Shown here one piece after another: positions 27,104 to 33,545 of a stretch of DNA of 64,000 nucleotides (positions within the stretch are counted from its first letter, which is position 1; each line of letters starts with the position of its first letter). Source of the stretch: Microbacterium yannicii PS01 (lineage in GTDB: Bacteria; Actinomycetota; Actinomycetes; Actinomycetales; Microbacteriaceae); NCBI RefSeq assembly GCF_000304335.1, contig NZ_CAJF01000001.1, positions 62,001 to 126,000 on the forward strand. Reading direction: 5' to 3'. Under the pieces are notes generated by a model. It did not search any database and had not been told where the DNA came from. It saw nothing but the letters and a program-made list of their open reading frames with translations. The translations under genes were made by a program, and so were the position numbers.

Positions 27104-27832
27104 CTAGGCGTCCGCGCGGTCTGTGATGCGGCTGCGCCCCACGGCGAGCCAGAGTCCGGTGATGGCGAGCCAGATCGGCATGAGAACGCCGGGAAGGCCC
27201 GGAACCCCGGATGCGAAGACGGCGCCGAGGGTGGCGATACCCGCGAGTGCTGCAACGGTGCCGAGGATCCGTGAGACGCTCCGCTCCCGGAATGCCATCC
27301 ACGCCATGGCCAGCGCGCTCGCGATCAGGCCCGTCCAGCCGATGTAGGCGCCGAAGTCGGTGAGCACGTAGTAGACGAACAGGCCGGTGCCGTCCCAGAG
27401 GCCGGATTCCGGCCCGAGGTAGTTCGCCAATGCTCCGCGCCAGCCGTATCCGAGGGCGAGGGCACCACTGGCGGCGATCACTCCGCCGCTCACGACCCGG
27501 GAGGCGGTCGAACGCGCGAAGCGCGCATCCACGTGACGTCGCCACGCGGCGGCGAAGACGATGAGCGCGAGCACGGAGACCAGGCCGGCGAAGAACCCGA
27601 TGCGCCCCACCAGCGGGTCGAGGCTGAGCATGTCGGCTGCGGTGACGATGTACTGCTCGCCCCGGTCGGCGGCCGCCAGCTCGGCCTCGGGGCGAAGGTC
27701 GGTGACGACGGTGCCGGTGGTGCCGGCGAGCCCGGCGAGCAGGGCCCACAGCGGCCATCCCGCGAATCGGCCTCGCGGCGCACGGGACGGCGCCGGGGCG
27801 CCGGGTTGGGTGAGATCGGATGTCGAGGACAT
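27104..27832 (-). CDS. Integral membrane protein of unknown family
   Basis: A 242-residue protein from the ATG at 27830-27832, which has GAAGG upstream; the longer frame runs into the response regulator gene and is not protein-like. After a short Ala/Pro-rich head there are about seven hydrophobic spans (starting WPLWALLAGLAGTTGTVV). I do not recognise a domain. It is the last gene after the kinase and response regulator genes, 166 bases downstream of the regulator, and could be a target or accessory of that system. Confidence 0.65.
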   Translation of the reverse strand: MSSTSDLTQPGAPAPSRAPRGRFAGWPLWALLAGLAGTTGTVVTDLRPEAELAAADRGEQYIVTAADMLSLDPLVGRIGFFAGLVSVLALIVFAAAWRRHVDARFARSTASRVVSGGVIAASGALALGYGWRGALANYLGPESGLWDGTGLFVYYVLTDFGAYIGWTGLIASALAMAWMAFRERSVSRILGTVAALAGIATLGAVFASGVPGLPGVLMPIWLAITGLWLAVGRSRITDRADA

Positions 27833-27998: not shown

Positions 27999-28676
27999 TC
28001 AGGCGCCGGCTGTTCCATGGCGGGAGCCGAGCCCCGCTTCGCGCGCCATCACGATCAGCGCGCTGCGATCGGGTGCACCCAGCTTGGTGATGATGCTGTA
28101 GACGTAGTTGCGCACCGTCTTGCTCGTGAGCACGAGCGTGCGTGCGATCGAGCCGTTGTCGAGGCCCCGCGCGACGAGGTCGAGCACCTCGGATTCGCGA
28201 TCGGTGAGCTCGGGGAATCTCCGGGCGCCCGTATCGGACGCGCTGCCGCTGAGATACGCGACGGCGCGGGCCGCGACATCCGCTCCGAACAGCACCTGAC
28301 CGTCGGCGACGGCATGGATCGCGCGTTCGACCTCGAGCGGGGAGGCGACCTTCAGCAGGTACCCCTTGGCGCCGGCGCGCATTGCGGCGAACAGGGAACG
28401 GTCGTCCCCGAGCATGGTCAGGACCAGCACGGCGGTCGAGGGATGCTGCTGCGTGAGCATCCGCGTGGCGTCGATGCCGGACTCGGATCCGAGGTCCAGA
28501 TCCATGAGCACCACGTCGGGGGCGTGCTGACCCACCAGGTCCAGGGTGTCGGCGATCGTCGCCGCGTCGCCGACGACTTCCACGCCGTCCAGCGTGTCCA
28601 GCAGCGACGTGATGCCTCGGCGGAAAAGCGGGTGATCGTCGACGACGGCGACCTTGAGTGCGTGGCCTTGACTCAT
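27999..28676 (-). CDS. NarL/LuxR-family response regulator
   Basis: A 225-residue two-component regulator. The receiver domain (residues 8-125) has the acidic pair VDDHPLF, the phosphate-accepting Asp in VVLMDLDLG, Thr in LVLTML and Lys in GYLLKVAS. The LuxR-type helix-turn-helix domain (about 153-215) has LTDRESEVLDLVARGLDNGSIA and SKTVRNYVYSI. It follows two histidine kinase genes in the same direction, 123 bases after the second. Confidence 0.93.
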   Translation of the reverse strand: MSQGHALKVAVVDDHPLFRRGITSLLDTLDGVEVVGDAATIADTLDLVGQHAPDVVLMDLDLGSESGIDATRMLTQQHPSTAVLVLTMLGDDRSLFAAMRAGAKGYLLKVASPLEVERAIHAVADGQVLFGADVAARAVAYLSGSASDTGARRFPELTDRESEVLDLVARGLDNGSIARTLVLTSKTVRNYVYSIITKLGAPDRSALIVMAREAGLGSRHGTAGA

Positions 28677-28799: not shown

Positions 28800-30875
28800 T
28801 CAGGACGCGTAGTCCTGGATCGCCGACCGAGCCGCGGGAAGCGAGACCGTGACCACCGTTCCGCGCCTCCCGCTCGACACGTCCAGGACTCCGCCGTGTG
28901 CGGCCGCCCGTTCGCGCATCGAGGTCATCCCGATGCCGGGCGTCGCGTCTTCCGGGATCCCTCGGCCGTTGTCGGAGACCTCGAGGACCGAGGACTCTGC
29001 GCTCGCCGTCACGCGGACCGCGACGTGGCGCGCGCCGGAATGGCGCGCCGCGTTGGCCAATGCCTCTGCCGCGACCAGGTACAGCGCTTCGGCTATGTCG
29101 GGAGACAGGTGAGCATCGCCGGCGACGGTGGCGTGCACTCGGAGCGCCGGGGACGCGAAACGGCTCACGAGCCGCTGGAGCGCGTCCGCGAGGTCCTCGC
29201 CATCGAGCGGACTCGGCGAGACCGCGTTCGCGAGATCGCGCACCTCTCGCAGCCGGCGATGGATGTCGTGGGTCAGTTCCGCCAACAGGTCGCGGGCACG
29301 TCGCGGGTCGCTCGCGGCGAGATTCTCGACCGCGGCGAGCCCGAATCCGATCCCGGCGAGGGCGGGACCGAGGCCGTCGTGCAGCTCGCGACGAATCGCC
29401 CGTCGCTCCTCCGCCCGGCGGGCGACGAGGTCGCTGCGCGCCGTGTCGAGAACCTCGTACGATTCCGCGAGGCGCACCACGGTGCTCACGAGCCCCGCGA
29501 CGTCGGCGAGCACGACGAGCGTGCGGCGGTCGAATCGCTGGCCGCCGATGGGCTGGGCTCGGAGTTCGCCGGCCGCCTCGCCACCGGTCGACAGTGGCAC
29601 GCGGGCCGGCTCGCCCGTCACCCGCACACCCGACTCCGCACGCTGCCCGCCGGCGTGGATCTCGACCCAGCCGAGCCGCAGCACCGAGCGCAGTGTGTGG
29701 GCGAGGTCCGTGAGGCCGGCCGCTCCCGGCGGGAGCTCGCCGATCCGCTCACCGAGGCGCGTCAGCAGGTGGGCGCGGTCGGCGCCGTCGCCGTAGACGA
29801 GTCGATCGATCCGGCGCTGCAGCCACCCCCGAAGAGGGAGTATCGCGAGGGCGATGACGACCGGCACGAGCAGCGACAGCGCGTCCACGCCGGCGAGCGT
29901 CACCGGGAGCGCGGCGACGAGCACCAGGTAAAGGGCGACGCCGGCGAAGGTGAGCAGCGACCACAGCAAGAGACGGCTCACGACGAGCGCGACCCCCCAC
30001 AGTCGCTGCCCGAGGACGACGACGAGGATCGCGGCGGGGTAGAGGATCTGTCCCAGCACCGGCGCCACGAGCCCGAAGTCGACCGCCCACGAGGGCAGAT
30101 CGAGACCCTCCGGCAGGACGAGTGCGAGGTACGACAGTGTGAGGAAGAGATGCCCGATGGTCAGCCAAGACAGACCCACGCGGGTGCGGCCTCGTGCCCG
30201 CGTCCATCGCGCGATCAGCACCGCGAGCGAGACGAACGAGATCGCTACGGCGGCGAAGGACAGGGCCGTGTACACGGGTGGAAGCGCCGCCTGGTATGCG
30301 GCGATGTCGATGGCCAGCGGGTTGCGCGGTGTCGGCACGGTCTGCTGGGTGAGGCTCGCGAAGAAGGCCGCGCCGGCGAAGACCGAGCACAGCGCCACGA
30401 GGGCGCGCTGCCAGCGTGGAAGCGGGGCGCGCGTGACGAGGATCGGCAGCACCGCCGTCATGAACGTGCCGGGAACGAATCCCCAGCCCGCCGCGAACGC
30501 GACCAGTCCCCACAGCGGAAGACCCGGCACCTGTGCCCCGAGCAGGCCGTACTGCACGCCGAACGCCGCGATGCCGGACCCTACTGCGTGCAGGGCGATG
30601 ATGACGCCCACCGGATGCGGTCGTCGAGCGAGGATAAGAGCGCTGACCGGCCCGTAGATCAGAGCCACCGTCACCCCGATGTCGTCGAAGCGCGCCTGCA
30701 TCTCGGGCGGAGCGGGGGAGAGGAAGACGCCGGGAAGGGGCTCGGCCGGAAGCTGCGCGATCCAGGCGATGGCGAGGGAAGCGATGGCGAGCGTCCACGA
30801 CACTGCCCACACACCGCCGGCGATCCATCGCCGGGGAGCGGCATCCCCTCCGCCGACCGGCAGCCGGGGCGTCAT
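28800..30875 (-). CDS. Membrane sensor histidine kinase, HisKA_3 type (intact)
   Basis: A 691-residue NarX-family kinase beginning at the ATG 30873-30875, which overlaps the preceding kinase stop (ATGA). About ten hydrophobic spans fill the N-terminal ~375 residues. A GAF-like segment follows, then the dimerisation/phosphoacceptor motif RRELHDGLGPALAGIGFGL and an intact ATPase domain: N box EALANAARHS, G1 VSDNGRGIPED and G2 GIGMTSMRERA. It should phosphorylate the LuxR-type regulator encoded next. Confidence 0.9.
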   Translation of the reverse strand: MTPRLPVGGGDAAPRRWIAGGVWAVSWTLAIASLAIAWIAQLPAEPLPGVFLSPAPPEMQARFDDIGVTVALIYGPVSALILARRPHPVGVIIALHAVGSGIAAFGVQYGLLGAQVPGLPLWGLVAFAAGWGFVPGTFMTAVLPILVTRAPLPRWQRALVALCSVFAGAAFFASLTQQTVPTPRNPLAIDIAAYQAALPPVYTALSFAAVAISFVSLAVLIARWTRARGRTRVGLSWLTIGHLFLTLSYLALVLPEGLDLPSWAVDFGLVAPVLGQILYPAAILVVVLGQRLWGVALVVSRLLLWSLLTFAGVALYLVLVAALPVTLAGVDALSLLVPVVIALAILPLRGWLQRRIDRLVYGDGADRAHLLTRLGERIGELPPGAAGLTDLAHTLRSVLRLGWVEIHAGGQRAESGVRVTGEPARVPLSTGGEAAGELRAQPIGGQRFDRRTLVVLADVAGLVSTVVRLAESYEVLDTARSDLVARRAEERRAIRRELHDGLGPALAGIGFGLAAVENLAASDPRRARDLLAELTHDIHRRLREVRDLANAVSPSPLDGEDLADALQRLVSRFASPALRVHATVAGDAHLSPDIAEALYLVAAEALANAARHSGARHVAVRVTASAESSVLEVSDNGRGIPEDATPGIGMTSMRERAAAHGGVLDVSSGRRGTVVTVSLPAARSAIQDYAS

Positions 30876-32857
30876 CGTGCGATCTCCGCATGGACGCCGC
30901 CCGTGGTGGGCAGCTCGGTCCGCGCACCGAGTTCGTCGGCGCGCTGCCGCACCGCCTCGGCGAGAGCCGTCGTCACCGTCGAGTCGCCATCGAATCGAAC
31001 ACCCAGGCGAACGCGCGAATCCTCGATGCTGACAGATGCCGCGACCCCCGCTACTCCGGGAGCCCTTCGCGCGCGCGACACCGCGTCGGCGATCACGAGG
31101 TAGACCGCCAACTGCAGGTCCGAGTCCAGCACGTCCGCGCCGTGAGCCGTCGTGGCCACGCGCAGTTCGCCGTGCGAGGCCGTCGTCGCCAGCTCGTCGA
31201 GCGCTGCTTCCAGATCCCCCTGGTCCAGCGCGGTCGGCATCAGCGTGCGTGCGAGCTGGCGAACGTCGTCGGCGCACGCGGTCGTGTCGCCTCGAAGTTC
31301 GGCGACGGCGATCGCTGCCAGGGGATCCTGGTTCGCGATGAGCGCGTCGGCGGCCGACATCCCGAATCCGATGCCGGCGAGCGCCGGAGCCAGCCGATCG
31401 TGCAGTTCGGTTCGCAGTAGGCGGCGCTCCTCCCGCCGAACGCCGAGCGTCCGGCGCCGCGTCGCGGCCACGTCTTCGTTGACCGTCGCCAGGAGGACGG
31501 CCGCGGCGACGAAACCGGCGGTCTGCTCCAGCACCGGTCGCGCCGCTCGGTCGATCGGCCGACCGGGATCATCGGTCACGGTGAGACGACCGATCGACCG
31601 GCCACCCGAGAGCAGGTCGACCGACACCGTGTCGGCGGCGATCGTTCCCACACGGACAGGAGCGGAGGCCGACGCGAGCGCGATCTCGACGGACGACAAG
31701 CGGAACGTCTCTCGCAGCGAAGCGGCGATCCTGCGCACCCCGTCCCGTCCGATCTCGGCGGAGTCGGCGTCCTCCTCGCCGGACGGGGTCACGGCCTCGG
31801 CCAGCCGACGCAGGACGTGTCGGGCCTCGGGTGCGCCGTCGGTGAACAATCGTCCGAGCCGCAGACGCAGCCGACGGGCGGTGGTGCCGAGGACGAGGGC
31901 GAGCGTGGCGGCGGCGATCGCGCCCGCGAGCGCGGCGTCCAGCCCGAGCGCCCGCCCGGCGGCGGTGGTCACGAGGTAGGCGGCGACGGCGAACGCCAGC
32001 GACTGCACACCGGCGATCGCATCGACGGTGCGTGACGCCAGATGACTCCCGTCGCGCACGGCGACAGCGGCGAGGATCCCGACCGGGAGGAGTCCCTGCG
32101 AGAGCACGAAGGCGGCATCGGCCAGGAGTGCCATCGGCGCCGGGAGAGCGGCCGCCAGGCGTCCGTAACTCGCGACAAGAAGAACGACTCCGGCGACGAA
32201 CCAGGCCACCGACTCCCGCTCCCGATCGATGCCGTCGCGCCAGCGCCGGGCGACGGCCACCGAGCCGGCGACGAAGCTGGCGATCGCCCAGAGGAGCGGA
32301 GCCACGTCGACCGACTGCGGAACAGGGCCGATCAGCGTGACGATCGAGACGACGAGGCTCGACAGCGGCGCGCCGAGGCCGATGGCCAATGCCACCCGAT
32401 GGGGGTGCGCGTGATCGCGGACCAGCAGCCACGGAAGCAGGGCGAGCGCCGCCAGCTCGGGGAGTCGCGCGAGGTGCGCAGTGACGGTGACCACGGTGCC
32501 GATCCCAGACGTATCGGGCAGCAGGCGACTCAGCACGAGGACGAGCGCCAGCCACCCGCTCGTGATCGCGAGAGCGCCGGTGAGGGCGGCGACATCCCGG
32601 CGGCGAAGCGACAGCGCGACCGCCGCCACCGGCGCGTATACGACGGCCGCGACGACGAGGCGGGCGATCGGCGAGGGATCCGTGGCTGTCGAGACCGCCA
32701 GGATGAGCGCGATCACCGAGGGCAGGACGGCGAGGAGAACCAGTGCGAGTCCGATGCGCGTCGGCGGCGCCGGCGAGTGAGCAAAGGTGAGTGCCGGGCG
32801 TGGCGAGTGGACCGGCGCGTCGCCGGGACGCGCAACCGCGCCTCGATATCCGCTCAC
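30872..32857 (-). CDS. Histidine kinase-like membrane protein with degenerate ATPase domain
   Basis: A 661-residue protein of the same plan as the following kinase: eight or nine membrane spans, a GAF-like stretch, then RTELHDRLAPALAGIGFGM with the phosphoacceptor His kept. In the ATPase domain the N box has no Asn (IADAVSRARRAPGVAG), and the region where DNGRGI and GIGMTSMRERA should be reads RFDGDSTVTTALAEAVRQRA. It should not bind ATP. It is probably a partner or regulator of the intact kinase, possibly phosphorylated in trans. The GTG at 32855-32857 is the only reasonable start; no clear Shine-Dalgarno. Confidence 0.82.
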   Translation of the reverse strand: MSGYRGAVARPGDAPVHSPRPALTFAHSPAPPTRIGLALVLLAVLPSVIALILAVSTATDPSPIARLVVAAVVYAPVAAVALSLRRRDVAALTGALAITSGWLALVLVLSRLLPDTSGIGTVVTVTAHLARLPELAALALLPWLLVRDHAHPHRVALAIGLGAPLSSLVVSIVTLIGPVPQSVDVAPLLWAIASFVAGSVAVARRWRDGIDRERESVAWFVAGVVLLVASYGRLAAALPAPMALLADAAFVLSQGLLPVGILAAVAVRDGSHLASRTVDAIAGVQSLAFAVAAYLVTTAAGRALGLDAALAGAIAAATLALVLGTTARRLRLRLGRLFTDGAPEARHVLRRLAEAVTPSGEEDADSAEIGRDGVRRIAASLRETFRLSSVEIALASASAPVRVGTIAADTVSVDLLSGGRSIGRLTVTDDPGRPIDRAARPVLEQTAGFVAAAVLLATVNEDVAATRRRTLGVRREERRLLRTELHDRLAPALAGIGFGMSAADALIANQDPLAAIAVAELRGDTTACADDVRQLARTLMPTALDQGDLEAALDELATTASHGELRVATTAHGADVLDSDLQLAVYLVIADAVSRARRAPGVAGVAASVSIEDSRVRLGVRFDGDSTVTTALAEAVRQRADELGARTELPTTGGVHAEIAR

Positions 32858-32969: not shown

Positions 32970-33545
32970 TCAGGCGGCGCGTTCCAGGCGGACCGTGGCG
33001 ACCAGAACCCCCGCGACGACAGCCCCCAGGCCGCCGACGGTCATATCGCCGATCGTGTCTTGATACGTGACGAAGATCTCGGCGGTGACGAAGGTCTTGC
33101 CCAGCCACTCCACCATCTCCCACACCGCGCTGACCGCGAGCCCGAGCGCCGTCACGATCACGATCGGCGTGCGCCGCCTCGCACCCGCCGCCCGTGGGAG
33201 CGGGACGACGTCCAGGCGAGTGAGAAGGAGATAGAGCATCGCTGCGCCGGCCCCCGTGCAGACGACGTGCACGGCGAGGTCCCACCCTGGCCAGACGCGA
33301 TACAACCCCAGCACGTTGCTCCACGCCGCCACGAGCACCGTTATCCCGAAGAAGATGTCGAAGCCCGGGCGCACTCCGACGAAGCGCGGGACCACGAGCG
33401 CCGGAAGGGCGAGCGCGAGGATGCCGGCATCCGTCGCCGTCCACCAGACGAACGCGGCGGCGACGCTCAACAGGCCCAGGGCGCGGACCGCATCGGCGAG
33501 CCATTCGCCCGGGCCGGCCGGCGCGCGCAGGAAGTTCGCGATCAT
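32970..33545 (-). CDS. DUF2238/YjdF-like membrane protein
   Basis: A 191-residue protein with five or six hydrophobic spans. The segments WDLAVHVVCTGAGAA, SAVWEMVEWLG and YQDTIGDMTVGGLGAVVAG match the conserved acidic/histidine pattern of the DUF2238 (YjdF) family. Function unknown. ATG overlaps the stop of the EEP-family gene (ATGA). It is the last gene of a three-gene unit with the hydrolase and the glycosyltransferase. Confidence 0.72.
   Translation of the reverse strand: MIANFLRAPAGPGEWLADAVRALGLLSVAAAFVWWTATDAGILALALPALVVPRFVGVRPGFDIFFGITVLVAAWSNVLGLYRVWPGWDLAVHVVCTGAGAAMLYLLLTRLDVVPLPRAAGARRRTPIVIVTALGLAVSAVWEMVEWLGKTFVTAEIFVTYQDTIGDMTVGGLGAVVAGVLVATVRLERAA

Follow-up and report, generated by a model that had tools for sequence, protein, structure and literature searches.

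The window analysed here, a stretch of 64,000 nucleotides from Microbacterium yannicii PS01 (contig NZ_CAJF01000001.1, positions 62,001 to 126,000), carries on its minus strand the genes of two membrane-anchored histidine kinases, called K1 and K2 in their order of reading, followed by the gene of a response regulator with REC and GerE (LuxR-type) domains. With a probability of about 0.55, K1 and K2 would act as a sensor kinase that is an obligate heterodimer and has only one working site for catalysis and docking, a reading which rests on sequence comparison. K1 has lost the residues of its ATP-binding site, and both proteins probably work only together, as one half-active sensor. An earlier prediction, made from the letters of the window, had already proposed such a kinase pair; what goes beyond it is a loss in K2, the intact kinase, as well: across its family a conserved element has gone, namely the end of the second helix (alpha2) of the DHp (dimerization and histidine phosphotransfer) domain and the linker to the catalytic and ATP-binding (CA) domain.

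By alignment, K1 and K2 are paralogous over most of their length (32% identity over 577 aligned columns including the membrane part, E 1e-28 in a single comparison), and the plan read from both sequences comprises about eight or nine membrane spans, a GAF-like domain, the DHp domain and the CA domain. The number of spans is given as a range because a hydropathy scan found nine hydrophobic segments in each protein, the last one of K2 lying in its cytoplasmic part. The shared multi-span plan and the ELHD(G/R)L helix noted in the original prediction were thus recovered, the H-box being ELHDRL in K1 and ELHDGL in K2. Both kinases are matched by the Pfam family HisKA_3 (28.3 bits in K1 and 45.9 bits in K2, cut-off 24), and K2 also by HATPase_c (52.4 bits); in the K1 of the window, Pfam gave no HATPase_c match even at E<=1. 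When both sequences are aligned, EALANAARH of K2 becomes DAVSRARRA in K1, SDNGRG becomes RFDGDS, and GIGM has nothing alignable.

The pair family was collected by searching 295 genomes of the genus with K1 and a K2 profile and 398 genomes of the family with K1 and K2 profiles, together with 119 genomes of the order and 296 of the class with K1; a scan of named genomes gave 12 loci. After removal of the loci that duplicate one contig (six, one of which, from M. sufflavum, differs by 100 bases), 21 K1-K2 pairs were obtained in total, window included. The other pairs in Microbacterium belong to M. aoyamense, M. album, M. sufflavum, strains CPCC 204701, A20, MYb62 and MYb66, and genomes G120, G160 and G236, and those beyond it to Leucobacter ruminantium, a Leucobacter metagenome-assembled genome (MAG), Aeromicrobium sp. 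PE09-221, Pimelobacter simplex, a Microbacteriaceae MAG (G317) and the family genomes G387, G472, G519, G648 and G672. A match to the K2 profile above 400 bits was found in 9 of the 295 genus and 6 of the 398 family genomes (14 different ones, the window's own being in both sets), and a partial match of 321 bits in G519 brought the genomes with K2 to 15. K1 adjoins K2 in all 15, in keeping with the original prediction, for which the first gene should not often be missing; this count leaves out a 281-bit match to the K2 profile in a genus genome (G222) and seven weaker matches without a locus from the K1 search of the family. Furthermore, the four-base overlap that had suggested translational coupling, in which the TGA stop of K1 overlaps the K2 start as ATGA, recurs in 21/21 pairs, 18 with ATGA and 3 with GTGA. 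On this sampling the pair family is rare, old and linked in all sampled genomes. No further pair appeared in the order sample, where the 7 matches outside the window's genome were single kinases, or in the class sample, where the 12 regions fetched held single kinases and one tandem of intact kinases; in these two samples, searched with K1 only and with at most 10 (order) or 4 (class) candidates per genome, a lone K2 could escape.

Residues were counted in an alignment of 21 K1s, 20 K2s (the K2 of G672, L069, being split over frames in its assembly and left out) and 31 other NarL-type kinases of genus and family, which are matches of the K1 searches and no random draw. The N-box Asn (N608) and the G1 Asp (D635) were each found in 0/21 K1s, 20/20 K2s and 31/31 other kinases. 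G637 and G639 occur together in 5/21 K1s, 20/20 K2s and 28/31 other kinases, and G647 and G649 in 1/21, 20/20 and 31/31, respectively. HATPase_c was matched at E<=1 by none of nine K1s, none of 13 K1 cytoplasmic parts and all of nine K2s, and HisKA_3 by 6/9 K1s and 7/13 cytoplasmic parts. Therefore, the claim that the first kinase lacks the N-box Asn and both glycine boxes, and that the second retains them, was confirmed by Pfam, by alignment and by the comparison of 21 K1s with 20 K2s, and the survey of relatives that had been advised shows the box loss to be shared. Since the N-box Asn and the G1 Asp are absent in 21/21 K1s and present in 20/20 K2s, the loss of the ATP site in the K1 sequences is more than chance and conserved across the family.

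The fold of K1 is predicted to be kept. An AlphaFold2 model of its cytoplasmic part, built with 13 sequences (mean predicted local distance difference test score, pLDDT, 84.5; predicted template modelling score, pTM, 0.56), resolves into DHp helices, a GAF-like fold and a CA-like fold; the last lacks the stretch in which K2 has its ATP lid. The modelled CA domain aligns with that of VraS (Z 12.6, 2.8 A over 115 residues) and with the ATPase domain of DosS (Z 12.0), and the N-terminal part of the model with GAF domains. The best Foldseek matches of K1 were to DesK (E 3e-6), with low whole-chain TM-scores of 0.2-0.3 by query length. The ratio of nonsynonymous to synonymous change (dN/dS) in the CA part of K1 was 0.16-0.47 in five close comparisons, by a counting method without a significance test and with high synonymous change in the window's own comparison, values which suggest purifying selection on this domain; for K2, dN/dS by region was legible in two of the five comparisons, two being unsplit and one spoiled by the G519 deletion. 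On sequence and model, K1 fits a pseudo-histidine kinase, with its predicted fold kept, its catalytic residues lost and its gene apparently under selection, and is probably unable to phosphorylate anything.

The phosphoacceptor His, which the original prediction described as kept in K1, is indeed present in the window, but across the family it is kept in 8/21 K1s only (as ELHD) and replaced in 13/21 by Glu, Asp, Arg, Gln or Ser; K2 has it in 20/20. A NarL-type DHp domain with this His is thus found in the K1 of the window and lacking in most of its orthologues, and a NarL-type HATPase_c domain with N, G1 and G2 boxes is found in K2 and not in K1. Conservation in K1 is highest at the end of alpha2 and in the CA linker, with the consensus VRxLARTLLPxxLDxGDLxxAL, where 21/21 K1s keep Arg546, Arg550, Pro554, Leu557, Asp558, Gly560 and Asp561 (K2 numbering); Pro554, Leu557 and Asp558 occur together in 21/21 K1s, 29/31 other kinases and only 4/20 K2s. 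Over the same 20 genomes, mean entropy per column, counting gaps as a letter, was 1.53 bits in K1 and 0.49 in K2 for alpha1 (27 columns), and 0.77 and 1.98 bits for alpha2 plus linker (28 columns), the 31 other kinases giving 1.17 and 1.46. The resulting interaction of 2.25 bits was matched by 0 of 100,000 column shuffles, which leave shared ancestry in place. Mean pairwise identity (19 genomes) was 0.44 in alpha1 and 0.70 in alpha2 plus linker of K1, and 0.80 and 0.34 in K2. Across the aligned family, then, alpha1 of K2 is nearly invariant and its alpha2 and linker are largely lost, and in K1 alpha2 and linker are conserved and alpha1 erodes.

The same polarity was found among ten pairs of tips hand-picked from the tree, in which the interaction had the complementary sign in 10/10 and changes in K2 alpha2 exceeded those in alpha1 in 10/10; Maoya-G120 and Aeromic-G387 share a branch, as do MYb66-G160 and Pimelob-Msuff, and with two branch-sharing pairs dropped the sign was the same in 8/8. 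K2 has Leu-Asp at 557/558 in 5/8 pairs whose K1 keeps the His and in 0/12 pairs whose K1 has lost it, or 1/12 in a second alignment (G160, in a gapped stretch). The window pair is among the less decayed members, with the K1 His and the K2 Pro, Leu and Asp all present. Moreover, two contact residues of DesK could be placed by a gap-free hidden Markov model (HMM) alignment, counting from His188: Leu200 falls on K2 position 511 and Arg235 on position 546, which puts the latter in alpha2. Position 511 is hydrophobic in 20/20 K2s, 9/21 K1s and 28/31 other kinases, and position 546 is Arg in 14/20 K2s, 21/21 K1s and 30/31 other kinases.

In a K1:K2 dimer with two faces, passage of the phosphate through the K2 His would keep alpha1 of K2 and alpha2' of K1 and let the rest drift, and passage through the K1 His would keep the opposite faces; the data show the pattern of the K2 route. 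K2 would provide alpha1 with the phosphoacceptor His together with the ATP-binding CA domain, and K1 the facing alpha2' and linker, completing the docking surface for the CA domain of K2 and then for the LuxR-type regulator. K2 would phosphorylate its own His in cis, the regulator would take the phosphate at the face formed by K2 alpha1 and K1 alpha2', and the opposite face (K1 alpha1 and K2 alpha2) would be redundant and decay. The CA domain of K1 would be a folded module that does not bind ATP, presumably structural or allosteric. From linkage, overlap and complementary conservation, such heterodimerisation, a composite site and cis phosphorylation are inferred. That the duplication permanently fixed the half-of-sites asymmetry which histidine kinase homodimers have, with one composite site kept, its mirror decaying stepwise and phosphorylation forced into cis, is given even odds. 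The docking geometry comes from DesK-DesR of Bacillus subtilis, known here, like the other systems cited below, from excerpts of the published accounts: there, alpha1 of one protomer carries the regulator and alpha2' of its partner adds minor contacts, Leu200 (in alpha1) and Arg235 being among the contact residues named, and the phosphotransferase complex has one CA domain engaged and a single free site for the regulator (PMC5231405).

Nevertheless, several observations weigh against this mechanism. In K1, alpha1 changed more than alpha2 in only 8/10 tip pairs, with a tie in Maoya-G120 (9 and 9) and a reversal in the two Leucobacter (3 vs 5). The events are few (by parsimony, the K1 His and the K2 Leu-Asp labels need only 2 changes each), and the association between both labels rests on 1 to 2 independent pairs, too few to test. 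Likewise, Arg546 is missing from six K2s that together make up a single clade, where K1 is also without its His, so that this loss was probably one event and not six. In one DesK-DesR complex, a CA domain touches alpha1 of the other protomer (PMC5231405); if the reaction were strictly trans, the K2 His would be unreachable in a K1:K2 dimer and the model would fail unless K2 paired with itself. A K2 homodimer could indeed be active, since K2 has both His and ATPase. In 5/8 pairs that keep the K1 His, the window's pair included, K2 has Leu-Asp, so that both faces may work there, as they might in all eight, and the PxxLD linker of K1 might be kept for a reason other than docking.

Among the alternatives, it is doubtful that the enzyme is a homodimer of K2, tuned by a K1 which acts as allosteric pseudokinase or competitor in the manner of DivL or ChrS and shares no active site with it. 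All 20 K2s have the His, the N-box and the G boxes, and there are precedents, since DivL can do without its ATPase and without its phosphorylation residue (as cited in PMC9491836) and the ChrS pseudokinase raises output through HrrS (PMC9491836); yet the decay of alpha2 and linker in K2 against their frozen state in K1, and the constant adjacency of both genes in the sampled genomes, would be left unexplained. Still less probable is that K1 is a phosphatase or titrating partner of the regulator and no kinase subunit: its predicted DHp fold and conserved alpha2 would suit such a role, but the phosphatase residues of NarL-type kinases lie in alpha1 just past the His, a segment which erodes in K1. 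A K1 that is a decaying, pseudogene-like duplicate is hardly credible. The lost catalytic residues would fit it, but the reading frame is open in 21/21 pairs, K1 is one old clade, its motif is invariant, and pseudogene decay was rejected on the constancy of the overlap and on dN/dS, which stays at 0.16-0.47 even in the dead CA domain.

A split kinase acting in trans, in which the ATPase of K2 phosphorylates the K1 His and phosphorylated K1 hands the phosphate to the regulator, is improbable. It agrees with the ELHD kept in the window and in 8/21 K1s overall, CheA3/CheA4 works in this way (PMC3591291), and the CA domain of DesK touches alpha1 of the other protomer (PMC5231405). Nevertheless, 13/21 K1s have no His, and alpha1 erodes in K1 while that of K2 is nearly invariant, the opposite of what this route requires; trans-phosphorylation of K1 as the conserved mechanism was rejected on the His loss in most K1s together with this polarity. 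Moreover, a split kinase has phosphosite and ATPase on different proteins, and K2 has both in 20/20. Of the heterodimer originally predicted, therefore, the inseparable pair with one intact kinase stands and K1-His phosphorylation as a conserved mechanism does not, the helix in question being the eroding one. The accompanying idea that the pseudo-kinase senses and its partner phosphorylates found no support, the membrane region being better conserved in K2 than in K1 (mean pairwise identity 0.50 vs 0.295). About 290 N-terminal profile positions are absent from the K2 of G519 (L065), which starts directly after the K1 stop, through a deletion or an assembly error; this shortened membrane part, if real, would argue the opposite way to the conservation of the K2 membrane region.

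With regard to known systems, no account of the K1-K2 pair or of complementary DHp decay was found in the open-access text of PubMed Central. Spo0B is a phosphotransferase of DHp type whose CA-like domain binds no ATP; it is a relay protein and keeps its His, whereas most K1s have lost theirs. DivL, the structure of which is among the fold matches of K1, is not known to be a tandem paralogue of its partner. In Caulobacter, it is a pseudo-histidine kinase modulating the true kinase CckA, and the excerpt citing it mentions no shared composite site (PMC9491836). Hik36/Hik43 also figure among the precedents for pseudokinases and split kinases. DesK, the best Foldseek match of K1 and the best match of K2 among solved sequences, resembles the pair in the HisKA_3 class of its DHp domain, in its NarL-type regulator and in one complex which is asymmetric, with one CA domain engaged and one regulator bound per dimer (PMC5231405). 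It differs in being the homodimer of one gene with an ATPase domain in both subunits, whereas K1 and K2 appear to have fixed the asymmetry permanently. ChrS/HrrS of Corynebacterium glutamicum is actinobacterial as well and has an ATPase-dead partner with a dispensable His, and the native kinases heterodimerise by two-hybrid, the truncated form not significantly (PMC9491836); however, the dead ChrS is a frameshift from laboratory evolution, each of the two systems has its own regulator, and the excerpts make no mention of complementary decay (PMC9491836). In CheA3/CheA4 of Rhodobacter sphaeroides two proteins, each lacking a part, are also needed per kinase, but these are CheA-type, with the phosphosite on one protein and the ATPase on the other (PMC3591291), whereas K2 keeps both and K1 is proposed to supply a helix. 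AbrC1/AbrC2/AbrC3 of Streptomyces coelicolor likewise places a NarL-type regulator at the same locus as two kinases, but each of these is reported to be capable of phosphorylating it and neither is dead (PMC9739842).

The origin of the pair was approached through a tree in which K1 and K2 each occupy one side of a branch, as one clade each. Five intact kinases of the class sample (L082, L083, L085 and two of L084) form one group with K1 and K2 (support 100/99), and the best tree joins them with K1 (76/47). Neither K1 with K2 (approximately unbiased, AU, test, p 0.48) nor K2 with the five kinases (AU p 0.089) was rejected; more than one branching order fits, and intact relatives of K1 may exist. 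A tree without these kinases (L082-L085) had suggested K1 and K2 as sisters and single kinases as the outgroup, a view that no longer stands with them included; the odds of the explanation are unaffected, because complementarity is independent of the root. The locus L084 (G913:C26:116000-131000) holds a tandem of two kinases with all boxes intact, a regulator and a DUF4386-like gene. It is probably no surviving intact K1, since its two copies group together (support 100/98) and placing the downstream copy with K2 was rejected (AU p 0.0015); it looks like a separate duplication. The expectation of a first gene without an intact ATPase domain thus holds for all 21 K1s, qualified by this tandem and by the unsettled branching order.

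Outside that group, single kinases were found, 7/7 in the order sample and 8 further ones in the class sample (the gene of L090 being split over frames). All 20 intact relatives keep the His, the N-box and the G boxes, and the linker Pro and Leu with Asp or Glu are present in 7/7 of those from the order sample and 12/13 from the class sample. Close to L082, L083 and the L084 pair there are also the regulator and a DUF4386-like gene. A plausible course would lead from a single locus of kinase, regulator and DUF4386-like gene through tandem duplication to loss of the ATPase in the K1 stem, followed by decay of K2 alpha2 and, in several lines, of K1 alpha1. The duplication may predate the five-kinase clade; should those kinases group with K1, it would be older and their line would have lost K2.

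Features of the locus (positions in the window; all on the minus strand)
Feature	Position	Strand	Basis or remark
K1, membrane-anchored pseudo-histidine kinase, 661 aa, GTG start; hydrophobic N-terminal half, GAF-like domain, DHp, degenerate CA domain	30872..32857	-	Open reading frame, Pfam, hydropathy, AlphaFold2
K2, intact NarL-type histidine kinase, 691 aa, plan as in K1	28800..30875	-	
K1 stop / K2 start overlap, ATGA	30872..30875	-	4-base (A/G)TGA in 21/21 pairs
K1 His486 codon (H-box)	31400..31402	-	His present in 8/21 K1s
K1 alpha2 end and linker, VRQLARTLMPTALDQGDLEAALDEL	31190..31264	-	Best conserved part of K1
K1 degenerate CA domain	30875..31189	-	Fold predicted kept; ATP lid missing; N, D and G boxes lost
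K2 phosphoacceptor His499 codon	29379..29381	-	His in 20/20 K2s
K2 alpha2 end and linker	29169..29243	-	Eroded across family; window copy still with Pro, Leu and Asp
K2 CA (ATPase) domain	28830..29168	-	N, G1, G2 and G3 boxes intact
Response regulator, REC + GerE/LuxR	27999..28676	-	Visual check shows acidic pair, phospho-Asp, Thr and Lys
DUF4386-like membrane protein adjoining the regulator	27104..27832	-	Pfam 17.2 bits, below cut-off 27.6
DUF2238-like membrane protein just upstream of K1	32970-33545	-	18.3 bits, below cut-off 26.4

The single LuxR-type regulator expected as the output of the pair is present, just outside the span 28800-32857 that covers the kinases. Its gene is divergent and upstream of K1 in the clade of Pimelobacter, the MYb strains and G160 (L058, L060-L063 and L070); the remaining pair loci have it downstream of K2, with about 2.6 kb in between in G387 (L064). 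The DUF4386-like gene has homologues somewhere in 13/20 other pair loci, not always adjoining the regulator, and also near the intact relatives L082, L083 and L084; its product is a likely partner or target of the pair. For the DUF2238-like gene, no homologue was found in the other pair loci at E<=1e-12.

The need for both halves of a histidine kinase dimer, and the choice between cis and trans, are usually probed with engineered hybrids. Evolution seems to have run that experiment here, since across 21 pairs one dimer face is maintained and the other erodes, and the family offers separately addressable subunits with which to ask which helix docks the regulator. It also calls for caution in annotation, K1 being a histidine kinase by HisKA_3 and yet probably catalytically dead. 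The contig of the window also encodes, outside the window (L001:2561-4642, G000:C1 about 159560-161641), a protein of 693 aa made of two DUF7134 + HisKA_3 halves, of which one, at the N-terminal side, has the H-box ELNG (His to Asn) and no ATPase match and the other is complete. This looks like a pseudokinase and a kinase fused in one chain, the second solution of such a kind in this genome. In G651 (L094:3828-7658), a kinase-kinase tandem lies outside the K1 family by score; its upstream copy has an intact DHp domain, a frame break before the CA part and no N-box Asn in that part. Either an assembly error or another pair of pseudokinase and kinase may lie behind this tandem.

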